The notes beneath the pieces were generated by a model. It ran no database searches, had not been told where the DNA came from, and saw only the letters and a program-made list of their open reading frames with translations. 64,000 bases of DNA from Stenomitos rutilans HA7619-LM2. Lineage in GTDB: Bacteria; Cyanobacteriota; Cyanobacteriia; Leptolyngbyales; Leptolyngbyaceae. Of the stretch, positions 4,847 to 14,399 are shown in pieces (positions within the stretch are counted from its first letter, which is position 1; every line of letters begins with the position of its first letter). Location of the stretch: the NCBI GenBank assembly GCA_019358945.1, contig JAHHIE010000023.1, positions 1-64,000 on the forward strand, in the 5' to 3' direction. A program made the translations under genes and the position numbers.

Positions 4847-5080
4847 ATGTCTGGAATCGAACAATTAGCGCTAGCAGATCTTGTACGCGAGACTCGTCAG
4901 CGCCTACAACTCTCGCAAGTCAAGTTTGCCACAAAGCTAGGAGTTTCATTTCAGAGTGTGAATCGCTGGGAAAACGGGCGGACAAAGCCCTTACCTGTGG
5001 CTTTGAAACAGATTGAGCACTTGCTGCAACATATGGGCGAGACTGGCAAGGATTTGCTGCTTAAGTACTTTCCTGAATGA
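4847..5080 (+). CDS. small Xre-type helix-turn-helix DNA-binding protein
   Basis: The 77-residue product is almost entirely an HTH_3 (Cro/C1) domain: ETRQRLQLSQVKFATKLGVS forms the first helices and FQSVNRWENGRTKPLP the recognition helix and wing. Close relatives are widespread in cyanobacteria as stand-alone regulators. The ATG at 4847 starts directly at the domain. It lies between two transposase remnants, so it may have arrived or been separated from partner genes by transposition. No toxin-like partner with a convincing frame is adjacent. Confidence 0.75.
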   Translation: MSGIEQLALADLVRETRQRLQLSQVKFATKLGVSFQSVNRWENGRTKPLPVALKQIEHLLQHMGETGKDLLLKYFPE

Positions 5081-5198
5081 GGATGGAGTTCCTATGACTG
5101 GTAACTTCCACTGCTCTATCTTGTCAAGCAATGGTTCATCTCAAAACAGCGCTCAAGGCATTAATAGCTGGATTCTTAGAAGTAGGCTTCATAGGAAG

Positions 5199-6081
5199 CT
5201 TAGAACCCGCCTGAAAAGCCGCTCGATAGAGTAAAGGGGTCGATTAGAGACCCCACAAATGACACGACTAGCTTGCCGTAGCGACCTCACCTCTGCCCAG
5301 TGGAACCTGCTTGCACCTCATATTCCTGCGGCAAAACCCGGTGGACGACCGCGAACATTGAATCTGCAAGAAGTGTGCAATGCCATCTTCTCTTCATCCG
5401 CAATGATTGCCAATGGCGCGACTTAACCCCACGACTTTCCGAAGTGGCAAAGCGTGTGCTCCTACTTTCACCTTTGGAGTAAAGACGGGACTTGGCAGAA
5501 GCTCAATGACCTGTTGCGGGTGCAAGTTCGCGAACAAGCCGGACGCAAGGCACAACCGAGTGCAGGGGCAGTATTGACAGTCAATCGGTCAAAACCGCAG
5601 GCAAGGCGGACGAGAAGGGCTTTGATGGTGGTAAGAAAATCAAAGGACGCAAGCGCACGATTTTGGTTGATACGATGGGGTTGCTCCTGGCGATATGCGT
5701 CCACAGCGCTGGTCGCTCTGACCATGCGGAGCTGACCTTGTTGACGTTCTTCTGCGCCTCGCTCTGGTCGTGCCTGCAACTGATTTGGGTCGACAGCACC
5801 TTTGGCGGCAAGGACTTTATCGCGAAGGTCAAGCAGCGCTACGGTCGGAAGTTGGAAGTGGTCAAACGCTCCGATGACGTTAAGGGCTTCGTCCTGCTGC
5901 CCAAGCGGTGGGTGGTTGAGCGCACTTTCTCTTGGCTGGAACATTTTCGTCGCCTCCGTAAGGACTACGAATACTTGCCAACTCGTAGTGAAGCCATGAT
6001 CTACGCGGCGATGGTGCACCTCATGCTCAGGCGTTTAGCGCCTGCTGATGCAACTGCTTAACTTTTCAAACCGCTTCTAAG
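5199..6081 (+). mobile_element. inactive IS5-family (IS427-like) insertion sequence with terminal inverted repeats
   Basis: The left end at 5199 reads CTTAGAACCCGCCTGAAAAG and the right end, read on the minus strand from 6081, CTTAGAAGCGGTTTGAAAAG; they match at most positions over about 22 bp. Between them lies a broken transposase gene. The IS is about 883 bp, the usual size for this group. A further CTTAGAAG motif at about 5174 just outside the left end hints at an older or nested end. Confidence 0.7.
5259..6061 (+). pseudogene. IS5-family transposase gene with several frameshifts
   Basis: From the ATG at 5259 the frame reads MTRLACRSDLTSAQWNLLAP and continues to CNAIF before shifting. 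Homology resumes in other frames as NDCQWRDL, then FHLWSKDGTWQKLNDLLR, then GLLLAICVHSAGRSDHAELT, and finally an intact C-terminal part (from about 5663) with WVDSTFGGKDFIAKVKQRYG and WVVERTFSWLEHFRRL, which holds the last acidic catalytic residue region. At least three frame changes separate these blocks, so no full-length enzyme can be made without frameshifting. One programmed frameshift is known in some IS5 members, but this many indicates decay. Confidence 0.8.
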
Positions 6082-6140: not shown

Positions 6141-6917
6141 ATGTTGAAACTAAAAGCTTTAGCTGCGATCGCTGCAATTGCTTGCTCTGCCTGCGCTGAT
6201 GATACGTGTGAGGGACGGGTTAAAGCACAAAGAACTGGAAATCCTGAACATTTGAAGCAACTTCTACAGACAAAACAATGTCAGGGGTGTGATTTGCGAG
6301 GAGCCAATCTACGTGGCGCTAATCTCATGGGTGCTAACTTGCAAGGAACCAGTCTGATTGATGCAGATCTTACAAACGCAAATTTGCAAGGCGCGGATCT
6401 TCGGGGTGCCACCTTTTATTGGCACGATGGTGGTCACTTTGGATGTCGCACCACACTTGTAACCAAATTTGTTGGTGCAGACCTGCGGCAGAGTAATTTG
6501 AGTGGCACGCGCTTATCAGCTGTGATCTTTCTTGGAGCAAATTTACAACAAGCAAATTTGATGCGTACAACGTTATCTGGAGCCGACTTGAATCGAGCAG
6601 ATTTGAGGGAAGCTAACTTGTCACAAGCTACGCTATATAAAGCACTCTTAAATCAAGCAAATTTTAGCCAGGCACTACTAGTCAATGCAAATTTTGAGCA
6701 AGCTGTTGCACTTAAGACAACATTTGAGCAAGCAGATTTAACTGGAGCAAGCTTTTATGAAGCTCATCTGCGAGGAGCAAGTTTTAGACAAGCAAATTTA
6801 AGTCAAACAAACCTACAAGCCACCGATTTAAGAGAAGTTAACTGGAACGCTGCAAAGCTTAGTACAGCTAAGTTTCCTAGAGGATTTCGCCCTTCTAATG
6901 GCTCTTCGTCTAATTAA
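6141..6917 (+). CDS. secreted pentapeptide-repeat protein
   Basis: The product (258 aa) begins with a signal peptide (hydrophobic run to about residue 18, with an AxA cleavage site at ACAD and two cysteines at 15 and 18 that could instead serve a lipobox). A cysteine pair, CQGC, is at about 48-51. From there to about residue 245 the chain is built of A(D/N)LxX pentapeptides such as GANLRGANLMGANLQG, interrupted around 95-110 by a non-repeat loop (HDGGHFGCRTT). Such repeats form a right-handed quadrilateral beta helix. Export to the periplasm or thylakoid lumen is likely, with unknown function. An Ala at position 8 is encoded within a HIP1 octamer near 6168. Confidence 0.8.
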   Translation: MLKLKALAAIAAIACSACADDTCEGRVKAQRTGNPEHLKQLLQTKQCQGCDLRGANLRGANLMGANLQGTSLIDADLTNANLQGADLRGATFYWHDGGHFGCRTTLVTKFVGADLRQSNLSGTRLSAVIFLGANLQQANLMRTTLSGADLNRADLREANLSQATLYKALLNQANFSQALLVNANFEQAVALKTTFEQADLTGASFYEAHLRGASFRQANLSQTNLQATDLREVNWNAAKLSTAKFPRGFRPSNGSSSN

Positions 6918-7064: not shown

Positions 7065-7877
7065 ATGGCAATGACACGATCGCCGCTTCCATTACCTGCA
7101 TGGTTGCATTGGTTAGAGACATGCCCCAGCACAAACACCTGGTCGATCGCGCATCTTGCCAAATTGCAGCATGGTGATGTCGTCTTTACACCACGGCAAA
7201 CGGCTGGACGTGGGCAGCATGGGCGCAGTTGGTACTCACCAGAAGGCGTATTAACAGCAAGCTTTGTGTTAGAAGTTCCCGTTGCCCAATTACCTGTTAT
7301 TAGTCTGGGGGCAGGATTAGCAGTGATTTATGCGGTTGAAGATTCGCTACCAGCCTTGCAAGGCGTGCTGCAATTGAAATGGCCCAACGATGTATTGTTA
7401 GAGGGTCGAAAACTGGCAGGCATTTTGTGCGAAGCCAGTGCTCACGGTAATATGAGTCGCGTTGTCGTCGGGATTGGGTTGAATCGTCAGGTGGAGTTTG
7501 AGCAAGCGGAGTTGAATGAACGCACGATCGGTCAGGCTATTAGTTTGCACCACGTTTCGCCAGTGGTACCCGAACCGCTTTTGCTGCTAGAACGCTTACG
7601 CCATTATTTGCTCCAGACAGCAGGCTTGCTGCAATCAGCATCGAATGATCCGTTAGGCAGTGCCCAATTAAACGCATTGCTGCCCGCACTCCGCAGTCGA
7701 GATGCATTACTGGGCCAACCTATCACAGTTGAATTGAATGGCGGATGCATTGCAGGTGAAGCGGCTGGCATCAGCGATCTTGGTCATCTCCTGTTGCAGC
7801 TTCCTAATGGTGAAGTGCGATCGTTCGTTTCAGGACACATTCTTTGGCAGCAGCGTGGGGGGCGATCGTCGTATTGA
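7065..7877 (+). CDS. birA: biotin--[acetyl-CoA-carboxylase] ligase
   Basis: BirA attaches biotin to the carrier protein of acetyl-CoA carboxylase in the cytoplasm via biotinyl-AMP. The 270-residue product is the catalytic type without the N-terminal DNA-binding domain of E. coli BirA. Diagnostic motifs are PSTNTW near residue 21, the biotinoyl-AMP loop GRGQHGRSW at about 48-56, KWPNDVLLEGRKLAGIL at about 105-121 with the catalytic Lys in GRKLAG, and VVVGIGLNR at about 133. The C-terminal SH3-like domain covers about 220-265. It could also start at the ATG at 7071. It is monocistronic as far as can be seen. Confidence 0.9.
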   Translation: MAMTRSPLPLPAWLHWLETCPSTNTWSIAHLAKLQHGDVVFTPRQTAGRGQHGRSWYSPEGVLTASFVLEVPVAQLPVISLGAGLAVIYAVEDSLPALQGVLQLKWPNDVLLEGRKLAGILCEASAHGNMSRVVVGIGLNRQVEFEQAELNERTIGQAISLHHVSPVVPEPLLLLERLRHYLLQTAGLLQSASNDPLGSAQLNALLPALRSRDALLGQPITVELNGGCIAGEAAGISDLGHLLLQLPNGEVRSFVSGHILWQQRGGRSSY

Positions 7878-8157
7878 AATTGCTAATGCAATGAATGTAG
7901 AACGTTTCGAGGCTGGAGGTGGAGCGATCGAGACGACATGCTAGTCTGATCTATCAACGGAGGAAGAACAGGGCTGTTAGATGAAACCTTAGCTCCCGGT
8001 ATTAATCAGCAGAACTGACGGATAACACCCCAAAAACATGGAATTAAGCAGCAGGTCTTCTGCATAATTCCTTAAAAGAGGGTACTATCCCACCACTTTG
8101 ACAAATAATTCTGAAGAAATGGGTGCTTATCCAGCGGATCTGACACTTAATACATAG
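7878..8157. other. spacer between birA and the cassette-like VOC unit, with one imperfect hairpin
   Basis: No gene is recognised. An imperfect 15-bp inverted repeat lies at 8040-8054 and 8057-8071 (GGAATTAAGCAGCAG against CTTCTGCATAATTCC), without a T-run. The spacer ends in the GTTATAC core site at 8157-8163. The sequence directly left of that site lacks the paired arms of an attC, so it looks like a bare target or secondary recombination site. Confidence 0.5.
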
Positions 8158-8786
8158 TTATACGCCATGTGAATGTCACATGCCGGACGTTTCTGGTCAA
8201 GAATGAGAGGAAATGATATGGCTCTTAAGCGCATGGACAACGTTGGCATCGTGGTGGAATCCCTCGACACCGCCATCTCTTTTTTCGCCGAGCTTGGTAT
8301 GAAGCTCGAAGGGCGAACCACGATCGAAGGAGAATGGGCCGGGCGCGTCACCGGACTGGGCCTCCAGCGCGTCGAGATCGCCATGATGGTCACTCCCGAT
8401 GGACACAGTCGGCTCGAGCTCTCTCGCTTTCTTACCCCGCCTGTAGTCGCTGATCACCGGAACGCCCCGGTGAACGCGTTCGGCTACCTCCGCGTCATGT
8501 TCACCGTGGACGACATCGACGAGCTGCTTGCCAAGCTCTGCAAGCGCGGCGCACAGCTCGTTGGCGAAGTGGTGCAGTACGGGGACTCGTATCGGCTCTG
8601 CTACATCCGCGGCCCCGAAGGACTGCTCATCGGGCTCGCCGAGCAACTTGGGTAAAGCGTCCCCATAGAGGCGCAGAAGCGCACGTGCTTTGCGGCAAGC
8701 GAACGGCCGTTGGGATACTTTCATTGGCGTATAACAATCGGTTGCAGCGGACGACCCGCTGCGCGGCCCATCGCTGAACCGGAGCG
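8158..8786 (+). mobile_element. integron-type gene cassette carrying a VOC-protein gene
   Basis: A 629-bp unit is bounded by identical GTTATAC heptamers at 8157-8163 and 8786-8792, which fit the GTTRRRY core consensus cut after the G. It contains one gene, in plus orientation, followed closely by an attC-like site, which is the standard cassette layout. Base composition is markedly GC-richer than the flanks and no GCGATCGC octamer occurs inside it. No integrase gene is visible in the window, so capture was either by an integrase encoded elsewhere or through an ancient event. Confidence 0.7.
8218..8655 (+). CDS. VOC-family (glyoxalase/bleomycin-resistance fold) protein, cassette-borne
   Basis: The product (145 aa) is a single-chain vicinal-oxygen-chelate protein made of two beta-alpha-beta-beta-beta modules. 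It starts MALKRMDNVGIVVESLDTAI, has ELGMKLEGR in the first module and FTVDDIDELLAKL at the start of the second, and ends with YIRGPEGLLIGLAEQ, where the family often has the metal-ligand Glu. Family members bind divalent metal and act on small molecules as lyases, isomerases, dioxygenases or drug-binding proteins; the substrate here is unknown. The ATG at 8218 follows GAGAGGAAATGAT. GC-rich codon use differs from the neighbours, in line with transfer as a gene cassette. Confidence 0.85.
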   Translation: MALKRMDNVGIVVESLDTAISFFAELGMKLEGRTTIEGEWAGRVTGLGLQRVEIAMMVTPDGHSRLELSRFLTPPVVADHRNAPVNAFGYLRVMFTVDDIDELLAKLCKRGAQLVGEVVQYGDSYRLCYIRGPEGLLIGLAEQLG

Positions 8787-8792
8787 TTATAC
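8729..8792 (+). other. attC-like recombination site
   Basis: The site opens with R'' GTATAAC (8729-8735) and closes with R' GTTATAC (8786-8792), an exact inverted pair. Inside, CGGTTGCAGCG pairs with CGCTGAACCG (read on the other strand CGGTTCAGCG) except for one extra G in the left arm. That single unpaired base is the extrahelical residue typical of attC sites. The central part (GACCCGCTGCGCGGCC) can also fold. Spacing from the VOC stop codon is 73 bp and the total length is 64 bp, both normal for attC. Confidence 0.8.
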
Positions 8793-8881
8793 CACTAGAT
8801 CGCGATGGGGACGGAATTGAGAGGTTATTGATGAAATGTCACTGCTGGTTGAATAAGTTTAAGTTTTGGCTTAAGGCGTAG

Positions 8882-8900
8882 CCACATCATTCTGATGTGG
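8882..8900. terminator. hairpin downstream of the TetR gene
   Basis: CCACATCA (8882-8889) and TGATGTGG (8893-8900) form an 8-bp stem with a 3-base loop, 10 bp beyond the stop of the minus-strand TetR gene. No U-run follows in the minus-strand direction, so termination strength is uncertain. Confidence 0.45.
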
Positions 8901-8909
8901 GCAAGATCG

Positions 8910-9566
8910 CTATCCAGCAATAGATTCAATCTGGAAATACTGCCTTAAGTAGGCAATGAGTAGCTTCTTGGTTTCTACAAGAACTTGTTGCCTGAAATGA
9001 CGATCGCGAGTCAGTGAGAGAATTTCCAGCACACTACCTACTTCCACGCTGACGATCGCAATGAGATCTCGTTGCTCTGGTTCAAGTAAAGGATTACGAA
9101 CCGCAAAAAAGTCTGCTAGCTGCTGGACAATGGCTTGATTAAACGCTGTATCCATCGACAGAATTTCGGTTGAGATCAGACGCGACTGAACAAAAACGGC
9201 TCGATAGCCAGGATTCGCTGCAACGAAGCGATCGAAGGCATCAATCATGTGATTAATGTAGTCCTCAAGCGGCAGGTGAATCGTTTCATCCGTGTGCAGG
9301 GCTGTGAATAGTTCCTGCAATTGGTTGAAATAGCGATTGGCTAAGGCATGAAAGACTGCCAACTTATCTGGAAAAAAGCGGTATAGCCCACCGACCGACG
9401 TATTTGCCTGGGCTGCAATATCGTCTGTGGTCACCGCATCGTATCCAACCTCAGCAAATAGTGCTGCTGCCGCATCCAAAATGCGATCGAACCGCTCTCG
9501 ACTGCGTGCTTGTTTGGGCAGTCGCCAGCGAGGTGCTTGAGGTGCTTGCTCAAATGTTTCAGCCAT
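8910..9566 (-). CDS. TetR-family transcriptional regulator
   Basis: The 218-residue product has the TetR_N DNA-binding domain at about residues 20-65, with DRILDAAAALFAEVGYDAVT, DDIAAQANTSVGGLYRFFPD as the HTH, and then DKLAVFHALANRYF. The C-terminal two-thirds is the helical ligand-binding and dimer domain, whose inducer cannot be read from sequence. It is divergent from the cytochrome P450 gene across a spacer of about 100 bp carrying two copies of one palindrome, so it very probably represses that promoter and its own. It lies between the two attC-like sites. Confidence 0.85.
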   Translation of the reverse strand: MAETFEQAPQAPRWRLPKQARSRERFDRILDAAAALFAEVGYDAVTTDDIAAQANTSVGGLYRFFPDKLAVFHALANRYFNQLQELFTALHTDETIHLPLEDYINHMIDAFDRFVAANPGYRAVFVQSRLISTEILSMDTAFNQAIVQQLADFFAVRNPLLEPEQRDLIAIVSVEVGSVLEILSLTRDRHFRQQVLVETKKLLIAYLRQYFQIESIAG

Positions 9567-9580
9567 AGCTCAAAGTTGGG

Positions 9581-9631
9581 TTGACAAACGCGAGGTTTAT
9601 CTCGTATTTTGAAGTCACGAGGTTTATCTCG
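9581..9631 (+). promoter_or_regulatory. P450 promoter with two copies of a TetR-type operator
   Basis: TTGACA at 9581-9586 and TATTTT at 9605-9610, 18 bp apart, make a near-consensus promoter for the P450 gene. The identical sequence CGAGGTTTATCTCG occurs twice, at 9591-9604 within the promoter spacer and at 9618-9631 just past the -10 box. Each copy has CGAG...CTCG dyad symmetry, and the copies start 27 bp apart. This layout fits repression by the adjacent TetR protein. Confidence 0.75.
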
Positions 9632-9670
9632 CGTTCTTAAGTCTACTGTACTGCAATGGAGGAAGCGACT

Positions 9671-10846
9671 GTGCAACAAAATTCTCAACGGCTCGAAACC
9701 AAACCAGGCGCACCCCAGTTTGACAATCTCCTTGCCTGGCATACCGGACAGCTTTTTGACGGTCTCTTTGCCTGGTATGCCGAGATGCGCCGTCATCCCG
9801 TGTTCTATGACTCTGGGCGTGAAAGCTGGATGGTGTTTGGCTACCAGGATGTGAAACGAGTGTTCAGCGATTGGCAAACTTTTTCCTCCCGCATTCCCCA
9901 TCCACCCGATCAAACCGACTTCACTCAAAGCCTTAACTTCACCGATCCACCCAAACATCGATCGCTCCGTTCTCTGGCTCAACAGGTCTTCACTCCCCAT
10001 CGAGTGGAGAAACTTGCTCCCCGGATGACTGCAATCACCCATGAACTGCTCGATCGCGTGGTCGAGCAAGGTCAGATGGATTTCATGCATGACTTGGCGA
10101 CTCCTGTGCCGATTATTGTCATTGCCGAAATCTTGGGCATACCTCTAGAAGACCGTGAGGATTTCAAACGCTGGTCTGATGGCATCGTTACCTTTGACCC
10201 CACTGCCCTGCAAGCGATGGCTGACTACTTCCGTGACTTGATTGGGCAGCGTCGAGGCAAACCGCGTAACGACTTAATTAGCGATTTGATTGCGGCCCAC
10301 GAGGGTGGAGAAAAGCTGACGGCTCAGGAGCTTGTGGATTTCTGCATTGTGCTCCTCGTCGGCGGGAACGAAACAACCACCAACCTGTTAGGAAATGCGA
10401 TCCTCTGCTTCAACGAATACCCGCAGGCGTTTGAGCAGTTGAAGCATGAGCCATCCTTGCTGCCACTGGCGATCGAAGAAGTCTTGCGCTACCGATCGTC
10501 GATTCAAGCCATGCAGCGAATGACCATAACAGAGACGCAACTCGGCAATCAAATGATTCCGCCTGGACAGATCGTGACGGTTTGGCTGGGTGCTGCCAAT
10601 CGAGACGAGACGCAGTTTGAGCAAGCGGAAACGTTTGTGGTCGATCGCAATCCCAATCCCCATCTTGCTTTTGGCAATGGAATCCACTTTTGTTTGGGTG
10701 CGCCCCTAGCTCGCCTGGAAGGAAAACTGGTGCTACAGGCAGTCCTGGAGCGATTGCCAAATCTGCAAATCGATCCGACTGCGGCGCTGGAATTCATTCC
10801 CTCTAGCGATATCCACGGAGTCAAATCTCTACCCGTTTTGTTCTGA
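9671..10846 (+). CDS. cytochrome P450
   Basis: This soluble class I-type bacterial P450 (391 aa) needs an external ferredoxin and reductase, and none is encoded nearby. The I-helix oxygen-binding motif is LVGGNETTTN, the K-helix ExxR is EEVLRYR, and the haem-binding loop is FGNGIHFCLGAPLAR with its thiolate Cys. I prefer the GTG at 9671, which has GGAGGAA 6-12 bp upstream, over the in-frame ATG at 9656, which overlaps that site. The substrate is unknown. It heads a likely operon with the DUF5367 and GAP membrane-protein genes and is probably controlled by the divergent TetR gene. Confidence 0.9.
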   Translation: MQQNSQRLETKPGAPQFDNLLAWHTGQLFDGLFAWYAEMRRHPVFYDSGRESWMVFGYQDVKRVFSDWQTFSSRIPHPPDQTDFTQSLNFTDPPKHRSLRSLAQQVFTPHRVEKLAPRMTAITHELLDRVVEQGQMDFMHDLATPVPIIVIAEILGIPLEDREDFKRWSDGIVTFDPTALQAMADYFRDLIGQRRGKPRNDLISDLIAAHEGGEKLTAQELVDFCIVLLVGGNETTTNLLGNAILCFNEYPQAFEQLKHEPSLLPLAIEEVLRYRSSIQAMQRMTITETQLGNQMIPPGQIVTVWLGAANRDETQFEQAETFVVDRNPNPHLAFGNGIHFCLGAPLARLEGKLVLQAVLERLPNLQIDPTAALEFIPSSDIHGVKSLPVLF

Positions 10847-10882
10847 TTCATTCAACTCACAACACTTTTAACGGAGGCAATC

Positions 10883-11323
10883 ATGCAAACTGTAACGAAG
10901 GAAATAATGACAGAGAACCGCGGTATCCGCATCTCCTACGGGTTCTTCTTCGGCATGAGTTTTCTGATCTGGCTGAGCGCAACGGTGGTGCTGCGGTTGT
11001 GGGGACATACCTTTTTTATGCCTAACAACAATGTGAGCATGGTTAGCAATTTCCTGTTCTCCCTGACTTTTCTGCCGCTGCTGGTTCAGGCAATTTTGCG
11101 ATGGCAGAAAGTGCCGCCGCATCAGCGCTTGGAGGCTGCTGTTTGTCTAGCCATTCCTGGAATGCTGCTCGATGTTGCGACAACCTACTTTTTCACCCAC
11201 GCTTTTCCAACTATTTTGCCGATTGCTGCTGGTGCCTTTGGTGCGTGGTTGCTTTGGGGCTGCGCGATCGTGCTGTTAACAGGACTGATCACAAGTCACA
11301 GCAGTAAATCACAGTCCCTATAG
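10883..11323 (+). CDS. DUF5367-like four-helix membrane protein
   Basis: The product (146 aa) has four predicted transmembrane segments at about residues 18-40, 52-70, 82-102 and 108-130, with a short charged start and a polar C-terminus. The segment YGFFFGMSFLIWLSATVVLR resembles the DUF5367 family of small bacterial membrane proteins of unknown function. A good ribosome binding site (ACGGAGG) precedes the ATG at 10883, 36 bp past the P450 stop, which suggests a shared transcript. Involvement in export or handling of the P450 substrate or product is only a guess from context. Confidence 0.65.
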   Translation: MQTVTKEIMTENRGIRISYGFFFGMSFLIWLSATVVLRLWGHTFFMPNNNVSMVSNFLFSLTFLPLLVQAILRWQKVPPHQRLEAAVCLAIPGMLLDVATTYFFTHAFPTILPIAAGAFGAWLLWGCAIVLLTGLITSHSSKSQSL

Positions 11324-11359
11324 CCATTGCCTGAGATGCCAGAATGAGGAGTTATTAGA

Positions 11360-12037
11360 ATGTCACTGCTAAGTTATCTGGTAGCGATCGCCGCGATTGA
11401 TAGTCTCAATCCGACTGCCACTGCAATTCAGGTTTATTTATTGACGACTCCTAAACCTGTCAGTCGATCGATCGCCTTCATTACTGGCATCTTTTTAGCG
11501 TACTGGATGGTCGGCTTGTGCGCGACGCTGGGACTTGCCAGATTCATCCAGTGGGTATTGGCGACTCAGGGTGAGTGGGTGGATGTCATGCAGTTCGTGT
11601 TAGGGATCGCGCTGCTTTACACAGGGTATGCTCTCAATTCACCCACTCACGCGAATCAACCCGTCAAAAGCGAGCCTAATTCGCTACAGCCGATTCACAC
11701 GTTTTTACTGGGCACAAGCGTCACACTTTTAGAGACTCCCACCGCGTTTCCTTATCTTGCCGCGATCGAGCGGATTGCTCGTACCAAGCTCAGTTTGCTC
11801 GACCTGGCAGGATTTTTAGGAATCTACAACTTCGTGTTTGTCATGCCCTTAATTGGATTGCTAGGCATTTACATTGTCTTCCAAAGCAGGAGTACCAAAC
11901 TTTTAAAGCGGGTTAATCAAGCGATTACAAAGTGGTCGCCTAAAATTCTGCGGGTGTTGCTGCTGCTAATGGGTGCTTTTCTCTTAGCTGACAGCAGTGC
12001 AGCCATTTTGGGTCGTCTACTGCGATCGCTGCAATGA
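11360..12037 (+). CDS. GAP-family (LysE-superfamily) membrane protein
   Basis: The 225-residue protein has about six transmembrane helices. Its opening LLSYLVAIAAIDSLNPTATA and the later LLGTSVTLLETPTAFPYLAA match the GAP (Sap, sulfolipid-addressing-like) family, related to LysE/RhtB transporters, in which a pseudo-duplicated three-helix unit carries conserved Asp and Pro residues. Members are thought to move small or lipid-like molecules across the membrane. It follows the DUF5367 gene by 36 bp, so P450, DUF5367 and GAP probably form one operon with a modification-plus-transport theme. Its stop is 28 bp before the second attC-like site. Confidence 0.75.
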   Translation: MSLLSYLVAIAAIDSLNPTATAIQVYLLTTPKPVSRSIAFITGIFLAYWMVGLCATLGLARFIQWVLATQGEWVDVMQFVLGIALLYTGYALNSPTHANQPVKSEPNSLQPIHTFLLGTSVTLLETPTAFPYLAAIERIARTKLSLLDLAGFLGIYNFVFVMPLIGLLGIYIVFQSRSTKLLKRVNQAITKWSPKILRVLLLLMGAFLLADSSAAILGRLLRSLQ

Positions 12038-12065
12038 GCTGAGCTAGATTTTAGGTAAAAGAGCG

Positions 12066-12151
12066 GTATAACTAGCGCATTGCGGCGGACTCATTCAAAC
12101 CCGAAGCATTGCAACAATTCTTACCGCCGCTGAACGCAATAATTGTTATGC
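12066..12151 (+). other. second attC-like recombination site
   Basis: R'' is GTATAAC at 12066-12072 and R' is GTTATGC at 12145-12151 (GTTRRRY); they are inverted with one transition. The inner arms GCATTGCGGCGG (12078-12088 region) and CCGCTGAACGC (12128-12137 region) pair with G-U allowance around one unpaired G in the left arm, at the same position as in the site at 8729. The total length is 86 bp. It follows the GAP gene stop by 28 bp, as an attC follows its cassette gene. Confidence 0.65.
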
Positions 12152-12242
12152 TGCAGTCCTTCAGTGGTAGCAGCCAGAAGATCATCGGCGAAAACTTCAG
12201 TGCTAAAATTTGCCTGACGGTCGGTTGAAATAAAATCATTTC

Positions 12243-12800
12243 ATGCTTACTCAATTCACGCTAGAAACGACCAGATTGATCCTGCGCCCCTTATCCCTTG
12301 AAGATGTGCCGTCAATTCAATGTGTGGCGAGTCGTCGTGAAGTTGCCGATACTATGATTTCTATCCCTCACCCATATCCTAAAGATGAGGCGGAGCAATA
12401 CCTACGAAGGCGAATTGCAGAGTTTAAGGCAGGGTCTTTAGTTTCATTTGCAATTGAACGCAAATTTGACAAGGCATTTTGCGGAGTTATCGAGATTCGA
12501 GATGTTGAAAAAGAGCATTCTCAAGCTGAATTGAGTTTTTGGTTGGCAGTTGAGGTGTGGGGACAAGGGTATATGAGCGAGGTCTTAAAACCTATGCTTC
12601 GCTTTGGATTTGAAAATTTAGATCTCAATAGACTTTATGCTTATCACATGACTAGAAATTCAGGCTCAGGCAAAGTATTGCAGAAAAATGGGTTTGTACA
12701 AGAAGGGTTGCTGCGTCAGCGAGTACGAAAATGGGGAGTGTTTGAAGATGTAAAGTTATGGGCAATTTTGCGAAGAGATTGGCATAGCGAAGTGGCGTAA
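12243..12800 (+). CDS. GNAT-family N-acetyltransferase (RimJ/RimL-like)
   Basis: The product (185 aa) opens with FTLETTRLILRPLSLEDV, typical of the RimJ/RimL branch of acetyl-CoA-dependent acetyltransferases. The acetyl-CoA-binding region is at about residues 95-130, with WLAVEVWGQGYMSEVL holding the Q/R-x-x-G-x-G/A-type loop, and the family ending motif NSGSGKVLQKNGFVQEG follows. Substrates in this branch include ribosomal proteins, other protein N-termini and antibiotics; none can be chosen here. It starts 92 bp after the second attC-like site, and sequence at its stop codon resembles the first half of another attC, so it may be a gene cassette. Confidence 0.85.
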   Translation: MLTQFTLETTRLILRPLSLEDVPSIQCVASRREVADTMISIPHPYPKDEAEQYLRRRIAEFKAGSLVSFAIERKFDKAFCGVIEIRDVEKEHSQAELSFWLAVEVWGQGYMSEVLKPMLRFGFENLDLNRLYAYHMTRNSGSGKVLQKNGFVQEGLLRQRVRKWGVFEDVKLWAILRRDWHSEVA

Positions 12801-12820
12801 CAACCCGGTCAGAACGGACT
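12795..12820 (+). other. possible truncated attC left half
   Basis: GCGTAAC at 12795-12801, overlapping the GNAT stop codon, is followed by AACCCGGTCAGAACGGAC, a layout like the R''-L'' half of an attC. No complementary right half or GTTRRRY site can be found before malQ (a GTTAGCG near 12873 does not fit). If real it is a remnant. Confidence 0.3.
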
Positions 12821-12875
12821 GCTGAGAAACCTAGGTGTTGTCGCAAAGGCTATCAATAACCGCTTAATCGAAACG

Positions 12876-14399
12876 TTAGCGACTGTAGAGTTGCGTAAGC
12901 GCGAGGAGTCGATCGCTCAACGTCTGCGTCAATTGTTCAGAACTGCGGTAGCGCCAACGCCAATTGCCATCATTATGGCTGGGGTCATTCATCCGGGCGC
13001 GGCCGTCTAAATCCAGCAGATCTTGTAAGGGAATAATGGCTAGATCGGCAACAGAGGCTAAGGCTGTACGAATGAGCAGCCAATTAATGTCAGGGATGTC
13101 ATCAGGTGAGGTGTAGCCAAAGTACTTCGCCAGAAATTGTTTCTCGGCTTCACTGGCTTGTTGCCACCAACCAATGACGGTGTCATTATCATGGGTGCCG
13201 GGATACACCACCGTATTGCGCACATAATTGTGTGGCAGGTAAGCATTACCCGGATCATCGCCAAAGGCAAACATAAGAATGCGCATACCGGGAAAGTCAA
13301 AGCGATCGCGCAAGGCTTCCACTTCGGGCGTAATGATGCCGAGATCTTCTGCCAGAATCGGCAACGTTCCCAGTGCCTTTCCCAGCGCTTCAAAGAATTG
13401 CTCGCCCGGTGCTTGAATCCATTTGCCATTAATCGCAGTCTCTTCACCAGCAGGCACTTGCCAATAGGCTTCAAACCCGCGAAAGTGATCAACGCGGACA
13501 ATATCCACGTATTGCAACGTCACTTGGAAACGCTTAATCCACCAGGCAAAATTTGTTTTTTGTGCCTGTTCCCAGTTGTAAACTGGGTTGCCCCAAAGCT
13601 GCCCGGTCGCGCTGAAATAATCGGGTGGCACGCCTGCAATAAACGCAGGTTCAAAGGTGTTTGGATCAAGTTTGAACAGATCTGGAGCTGCCCACACATC
13701 GGAGCTGTTATGGCAAACGTAAATGGAAATATCGCCAATGATTTTGATGTTTTTACTGTTCGCATACTGACGCAATTTTCGCCACTGCTCGAAGAAGATA
13801 AACTGCAAAAATTGATGAAATTGAATGCTGTCCTGTAATGCTTCTTTTTGGGCTTTGATGGCATCAGGATCGCGGCGTGCGATCGCAGTCTCCCACTGAT
13901 GCCAACTTTTTCCACCGTTGGCTTCTAACAACGCCATAAATAACGTGAAATCGTCCAGCCAGGAGGTTTGTTCCTGGAGAAATTGGGTGAATTGCGTCGT
14001 TTGTCCAGATGTGGTTTGTTCAGACGATCGCGCTTTTTGAAAGCGATCGTAGGCCAGCTTCAGCAAGTGCATCTTGTGCGAAATTACGCGATCGAAGTTG
14101 ACCTGATCGAGATTGTCGTCTGCAATCGGAGTTAATTCGTTTGCCTCCAGCAATCCATCACTGACAAGCTGTTCCAAATCAATCAGCAGTGGATTGCCTG
14201 CAAAAGTGCTGAAGTTCATGATGTACGGCGAATGCTCGTAGCCCGTCGGCCCCAAAGGCAAGACCTGCCATAACGTTTGACCGCTGTTTGCCAAAAAATC
14301 CACAAATTCATAAGCGGCTTTGCCTAAATCGCCAATCCCAAATTGGCTGGGTAGAGAAGTTGGGTGGAGCAAAACACCACTTGCACGTTGAAAAGCCAT
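12876..14399 (-). CDS. malQ: 4-alpha-glucanotransferase (amylomaltase)
   Basis: MalQ (EC 2.4.1.25) moves alpha-1,4-glucan segments between maltodextrins in glycogen breakdown. The 507-residue product is the usual bacterial GH77 length. It opens with RASGVLLHPTSLPSQFGIGD; the catalytic nucleophile Asp lies in VDIVRVDHFRGFEAYW, the acid/base Glu in ILAEDLGIITPEV and the transition-state Asp in YPGTHDNDTVIGWW. It is divergent from the trehalose synthase-maltokinase gene across a 305-bp spacer, which places two glucan/maltose enzymes side by side and suggests coordinated use of maltose and maltodextrins. Confidence 0.95.
   Translation of the reverse strand: MAFQRASGVLLHPTSLPSQFGIGDLGKAAYEFVDFLANSGQTLWQVLPLGPTGYEHSPYIMNFSTFAGNPLLIDLEQLVSDGLLEANELTPIADDNLDQVNFDRVISHKMHLLKLAYDRFQKARSSEQTTSGQTTQFTQFLQEQTSWLDDFTLFMALLEANGGKSWHQWETAIARRDPDAIKAQKEALQDSIQFHQFLQFIFFEQWRKLRQYANSKNIKIIGDISIYVCHNSSDVWAAPDLFKLDPNTFEPAFIAGVPPDYFSATGQLWGNPVYNWEQAQKTNFAWWIKRFQVTLQYVDIVRVDHFRGFEAYWQVPAGEETAINGKWIQAPGEQFFEALGKALGTLPILAEDLGIITPEVEALRDRFDFPGMRILMFAFGDDPGNAYLPHNYVRNTVVYPGTHDNDTVIGWWQQASEAEKQFLAKYFGYTSPDDIPDINWLLIRTALASVADLAIIPLQDLLDLDGRARMNDPSHNDGNWRWRYRSSEQLTQTLSDRLLALTQLYSR

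Follow-up and report, generated by a model that had tools for sequence, protein, structure and literature searches.

The stretch of DNA analysed here, called the window, is 64,000 nt in length and belongs to contig C12 of the Stenomitos rutilans HA7619-LM2 genome (7.28 Mb, 119 contigs). Two chromosomal genes flank the region of interest: a birA-like gene for biotin–protein ligase on the left (7065–7877, plus strand; Pfam PF03099/PF02237, TIGR00121) and malQ, which encodes 4-alpha-glucanotransferase, on the right (12876–14399, minus strand). Between them lie three units that appear to be integron cassettes, all read on the plus strand, in the order VOC, four-gene block and GNAT. They are preceded by what looks like a relic attI-like platform that has no integrase (7975–8159, plus strand), with the cassette crossover at G8157|T8158. 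GC content differs by cassette, being 60%, 50% and 44%, respectively.

The first cassette (8158–8786) carries a VOC/glyoxalase-family gene, which starts at 8173 or 8218 and ends at 8655, and is closed by attC site 1 (8729–8792, plus strand), whose R' box GTTATAC is at 8786–8792. The block in the middle is 3,359 bp in length (8787–12145). It begins with a gene for a TetR-family repressor on the minus strand (8910–9566; PF00440 and PF17918), followed on the plus strand by genes for a cytochrome P450 with the heme-ligand motif FGNGIHFCLG intact (9656–10846; PF00067, E=2e-38), a DUF5367 membrane protein (10883–11323; PF17329, E=2e-21) and a GAP/SfLAP, or sulfolipid-addressing, membrane protein (11360–12037; PF11139, E=3e-26). 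The block is closed by attC site 2 (12066–12151, plus strand), which is partly decayed; its R'' box GTATAAC pairs with the GTTATAC that starts the block at 8786. The third cassette (12146–12875, 43.6% GC) contains a GNAT acetyltransferase gene (12243–12800) and attC site 3 (12795–12880, plus strand), whose R' box GTTAGC shares bases with the malQ stop codon; the last bases of malQ, TTAGCG, form the right junction of the array. No tRNA was found at the insertion site, and an Rfam search gave no matching family. Elsewhere in the window, at 5454–6061 upstream of a pentapeptide-repeat gene, the translation resembles that of a decayed DDE transposase (IS5 type) spread over shifted frames.

attC sites and borders of the array

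A reading of the sequence alone had pointed to a second attC-like site 28 bp past the GAP stop codon (12037), and the architecture is present at exactly 12066–12151: R'' GTATAAC, L'' GCATTGCGGCGG, L' CCGCTGAACGC and R' GTTATGC. When both strands of the 64-kb window are scanned without a model, the sole demand being that R''/R' and L''/L' pair with one base left unpaired, only two sites score at least 15.5, those at 8729–8792 (15.5) and 12066–12151 (16.5); from dinucleotide shuffles, 0.23 and 0.067 sites are expected per window at these two scores. Two covariance models were also used, R1 built on 18 attCs that come from other genomes and with few exceptions lie next to an intact integron integrase, and the wider R2 built on 88 attCs. 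Sites 1 and 3 score well with both (site 1, E=4e-7 with R1 and 1e-8 with R2; site 3, E=2e-8 and 5e-9). The model score of site 2, which the sequence-only reading had proposed as a check, turns out to be borderline, neither clearly significant nor insignificant: 19.5 bits and E=0.07 over 301 kb with R1, 18.2 bits and E=0.03 over 64 kb with R2.

One spacer of site 2 has three extra bases. Its bottom-strand hairpin has a z-score of −0.8 relative to shuffles (site 1, −4.0; site 3, 0.3), or −1.8 in the circle form, and the counterpart in a second genome, G013, has −3.8 and −5.5. Because of the weak score and poor folding, site 2 looks decayed, and the case for it rests on synteny. By score alone its identity as an attC is borderline; by its position at the end of a unit of homology, which a 77-bit attC bounds in another genus too, it is not borderline. 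The hairpin of site 3 is also decayed by this measure.

Relatives in the same genus show what the locus looks like when empty. Junction data come from G005, G001 and G003, and the stretches from G006, G002 and G004 are without birA. The gap between birA and malQ is approximately 35 bp in G005 and 5 bp in G001, versus 5.0 kb here; since the two genes are nearly adjacent in both relatives, 7878–12875 is an insertion. At the right border, attC site 3 ends in GTTAGC and its TTA is the malQ stop codon, with the junction at G|TTAGC; both empty relatives read TTTAGCG at this point. In G003 the same spacer has a different 3-kb insert (L067:10281-13238) with a methyltransferase gene and two other genes, where the only attC-like match, if it is one, is very weak (10274–10356, E=0.0055). 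Perhaps the birA–malQ spacer is an insertion hotspot, as the different insert suggests.

The left border, 7975–8159, is 70% identical to a sequence just upstream of an intI pseudogene in the same genome (C39:353576-353739, minus strand) and 72% identical to one that immediately precedes intI in G018 (L134:10325-10490). In either case the match breaks off at the GTT with which the first cassette starts. The region thus resembles an attI by homology only, and the assignment is limited to 7975–8159, as the alignment of 7872–7975 with the intI leader is gappy and was set aside. No intI remnant was found at the window locus. Another attI-like copy, approximately 7 kb from intI and with no integrase beside it, is present in G044 (L116:2104-2282) and holds repeated motifs of the GATAACACC/GGTATTATCC type.

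A second copy of the block

The complete block was found in one other genome only, G013, which belongs to another genus (g8) of the same family. There the four genes are present in the same order at L070:881-4183; the 5.3-kb contig is identical to L108, from Leptolyngbyaceae cyanobacterium CSU_1_3. The two blocks align over 3,259 bp with 78% identity, and amino acid identity is 85% for TetR and approximately 82–87% for the P450. Homology begins at window position 8786 (L070:881), the base with which the left GTT box opens, and stops at the end of the GAP gene. Right after this gene G013 has an attC that scores 77 bits (E=9e-17). The left neighbour of the block in G013 is an attI-like region, not another attC, and an N-terminal remnant of intI is found approximately 100 bp upstream of the block, which thus has an integron platform before it in this genome as well.

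The boxes at the two ends of the block match each other. In both copies the box at the start is reverse-complementary in all seven positions (7/7) to the block's own R'', which lies about 3.3 kb away, yet the letters differ by copy: GTTATAC/GTATAAC here and GTTAGAC/GTCTAAC in G013. Such co-variation is expected of a cassette, since on excision as a circle the two boxes meet and together make up a single R box. The neighbouring cassettes show the same complementarity between own R'' and 5' start (VOC, 7/7; GNAT, 6/7). It should be pointed out that two R boxes drawn at random from this cyanobacterial family agree in about 12% of cases, and therefore any match taken singly is of modest weight; that the boxes change together between copies weighs more.

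The two neighbours recur elsewhere. A VOC homologue from another family (G154) has 86% amino acid identity, and the DNA homology extends into its own attC (58 bits). The GNAT cassette is also present in G054 (78% amino acid identity), with homology that sets in at 12138 and takes in the attC of the G054 cassette (67 bits). By these comparisons VOC and GNAT are independently recurring cassettes, each with its own attC. The comparisons also show the block, VOC and GNAT to be separable units with edges at GTT crossovers, in an array that extends from the attI-like left border to the malQ stop codon. The breakpoints that had been proposed for a synteny check (8157, 8786 and 12145) are all confirmed, and 12875 joins them as a fourth; the third attC and the attI-like left border are likewise additions to the earlier reading.

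Regulation and likeness to known cassettes

A putative promoter/operator is situated at 9580–9631 (plus strand), between tetR and the P450 gene. It consists of a TTGACA −35 box, a TATTTT −10 box and two exact copies of the 14-mer CGAGGTTTATCTCG (9591–9604 and 9618–9631), one of which sits between the −35 and −10 boxes. With up to two mismatches allowed, 0.25 copies of CGAGGTTTATCTCG are expected per window, versus the two exact copies observed. L070 also has two exact copies within the same promoter frame, one lying in inverted orientation, and the −35/−10 pair and operator layout are conserved in both blocks. Among the 171 loci compared, CGAGGTTTATCTCG was not found beyond the overlapping loci of the window and L070 stretches. 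The CGAGGTTTATCTCG pair and the conserved promoter boxes indicate a self-regulated cassette. By analogy with established TetR-family behaviour, TetR may bind both copies and repress the P450 operon until an inducer binds. With such control from its own promoter, expression would be independent of the integron Pc promoter. The gene content suggests that the block is probably an inducible oxidation-plus-membrane module; the gene families allow the guess that it perhaps serves in detoxification or lipid modification.

A typical cassette is a single promoterless open reading frame with an attC, approximately 0.5–1.5 kb in length, and is expressed from Pc. The block departs from this form, which is typical rather than defining, in having four open reading frames, a divergent repressor and its own promoter/operator. 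Arrays adjacent to intI in this family have a median attC spacing of 0.83 kb; five of 38 spacings reach 2 kb and one reaches 3 kb, a two-gene cassette of 3.4 kb. The large cassettes L117 (3.4 kb, ATPase and TPR) and L128 (2.4 kb, methylase and partner) of the same family resemble the block in exceeding 2 kb and are intI-adjacent; they have two genes, versus four here, and no divergent regulator or operator was noted in them. Judged by translation, the large cassettes beside intI look like carriers of defence genes: an ATPase with a TPR protein (L117:2385-5557), a DNA methylase with its partner (L128:6686-8876) and an OLD-like ATPase (L121:4092-6188).

Cyanobacterial integrons and attCs are already known (PMC8618304, PMC8352920), and a Cyanobacteria attC model exists (PMC8352920). 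With cassettes of sedentary chromosomal integrons the block shares an attC of about 86 bp, the GTT crossover, R''/R' end complementarity, placement in a head-to-tail array and recurrence in different arrays; it differs in its four genes, 3.36-kb length, divergent repressor and own promoter. Cassettes with two open reading frames or none are described as exceptions in a review figure (PMC8618304). Pc-independent expression, predicted here, is shared with own-promoter cassettes such as cmlA and toxin–antitoxin cassettes (PMC8876359, PMC8618304), which have one or two open reading frames; in the block, by contrast, a repressor gene faces an operon of three genes, and the putative operator is present twice. 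A literature search found no paper naming a P450 cassette. A cassette of four genes, one of them a divergently oriented repressor gene, is thus unusual, within already known integron biology.

Origin of the array and its genomic setting

The block is very probably one 3,359-bp integron cassette that consists of a repressor and a divergent P450–DUF5367–GAP operon with its own promoter and a single attC. The sequence-only reading had suggested an unusually large cassette of several genes, equipped with a promoter and repressor of its own, between two attC sites, and synteny supports this. It had offered as an alternative that the block is ancestral DNA with cassettes inserted on both sides; the block would then have been native between birA and malQ, and the inserted cassettes would be single-gene ones. 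The GC content of the block (49.7%) is indeed near that of birA (51.8%) and malQ (48.9%), and P450 orthologues are found in ordinary chromosomal clusters of Nodosilinea. Nevertheless, G005 and G001 have no block between birA and malQ, no same-genus relative carries it (the best P450 match within the genus is 41% identical), and the homology with G013 has its left edge on the crossover base and an attC after its right end; the ancestral alternative is rejected as very improbable. Relatives with the P450 block and no attC at its borders, which would have counted against a cassette, were looked for and none was found. Nodosilinea, tried as a native source, has a P450 that is 73% identical, but in a TetR–DUF5367–P450–methyltransferase cluster with other partners. 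A search of plasmids yielded P450 or TetR fragments only, never the block.

Perhaps the block was built inside integrons from at least two cassettes whose internal attCs were then deleted. Operon-like fused cassettes are documented in mobile integrons (PMC8876359), and DUF5367 and GAP could each be a former single-gene cassette. However, neither a full-sensitivity model scan nor the model-free scan finds an attC-like site or relic within the block, and the chromosomal TetR–DUF5367–P450 neighbourhood in Nodosilinea suggests capture of a ready-made gene group. Fusion therefore seems rather unlikely, and as gene order, operator and spacing are common to G013 at 78% identity, any such event would be old. 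A question apart is how the array came to this locus. In the preferred reading of a local integron, an integron integrase would have joined circular cassette copies to attI here; the platform would then have lost its integrase gene, and decay of two of the three attCs would have left an immobile array. The array might instead have arrived directly at a secondary site of the attG type at the malQ stop codon, a possibility that carries some weight although it is the less probable course. The right junction falls exactly at G|TTAGC where empty relatives read TTTAGCG, the genome has many attCs and no integrase, and integration at such sites is documented for IntI1, as cited in PMC12444791 and PMC12901181. 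Against direct arrival, the left border is attI-like and not plain birA–malQ spacer.

The locus has the features of a CALIN (a cluster of at least two attCs with no nearby integrase; PMC9024848), with three attCs and no integrase, nearby or intact in the genome; it lacks the intact intI beside attI of a complete integron. It differs from a CALIN in keeping the attI-like platform at its left, and so looks like an integron minus intI. A profile search of the same genome gave no IntI over the family cut-off and otherwise distant tyrosine recombinases below it. There are 52 attC-like sites (E<1e-3) at approximately 33 loci on 29 contigs, 20 of these sites being single, and no intact integron integrase. 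These scattered attC loci are apparently stranded cassettes; examples are C17:360-4365, C53:11065-15263, C27:46438-49412, C118, C4 and C92, with approximately 27 more. In a search across the order, intact intI is found in 29 of 42 genomes of the family, one genome having as many as five intI matches, not all of them complete, and attCs are found in all 41 genomes searched, at 3–87 each. From these counts, integrons are near-universal in this cyanobacterial family.

A tentative proposal, more speculative than the cassette status of the block, is that integrons in this family take up entire self-regulated operons, each as one cassette, and that such cassettes stay useful after integrase loss and accumulate as scattered domesticated operons. 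If this is true, cassette genes need no integron promoter. With repressor, operator, promoter and three-gene operon in one cassette, a whole regulated function would be transferred in a single step, and it could persist after the integrase is gone. With approximately 52 apparently stranded attCs in an integron-rich family, the genome might serve as a natural case of cassettes becoming ordinary chromosomal genes. The defined empty site, the copy in a second genus and the co-varying boxes make cassette status and the limits of capture directly testable.

The same genome has a second fossil integron, at L074 (G000:C39:346000-362000), where the integrase fragment that falls below the cut-off is a broken intI pseudogene. 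The intI remnant is at 7839–8267 on the plus strand and is broken by foreign sequence; an attI-like region is at 7577–7740 on the minus strand, and two attCs of classical geometry are at 6433–6517 and 5023–5111, both on the minus strand.
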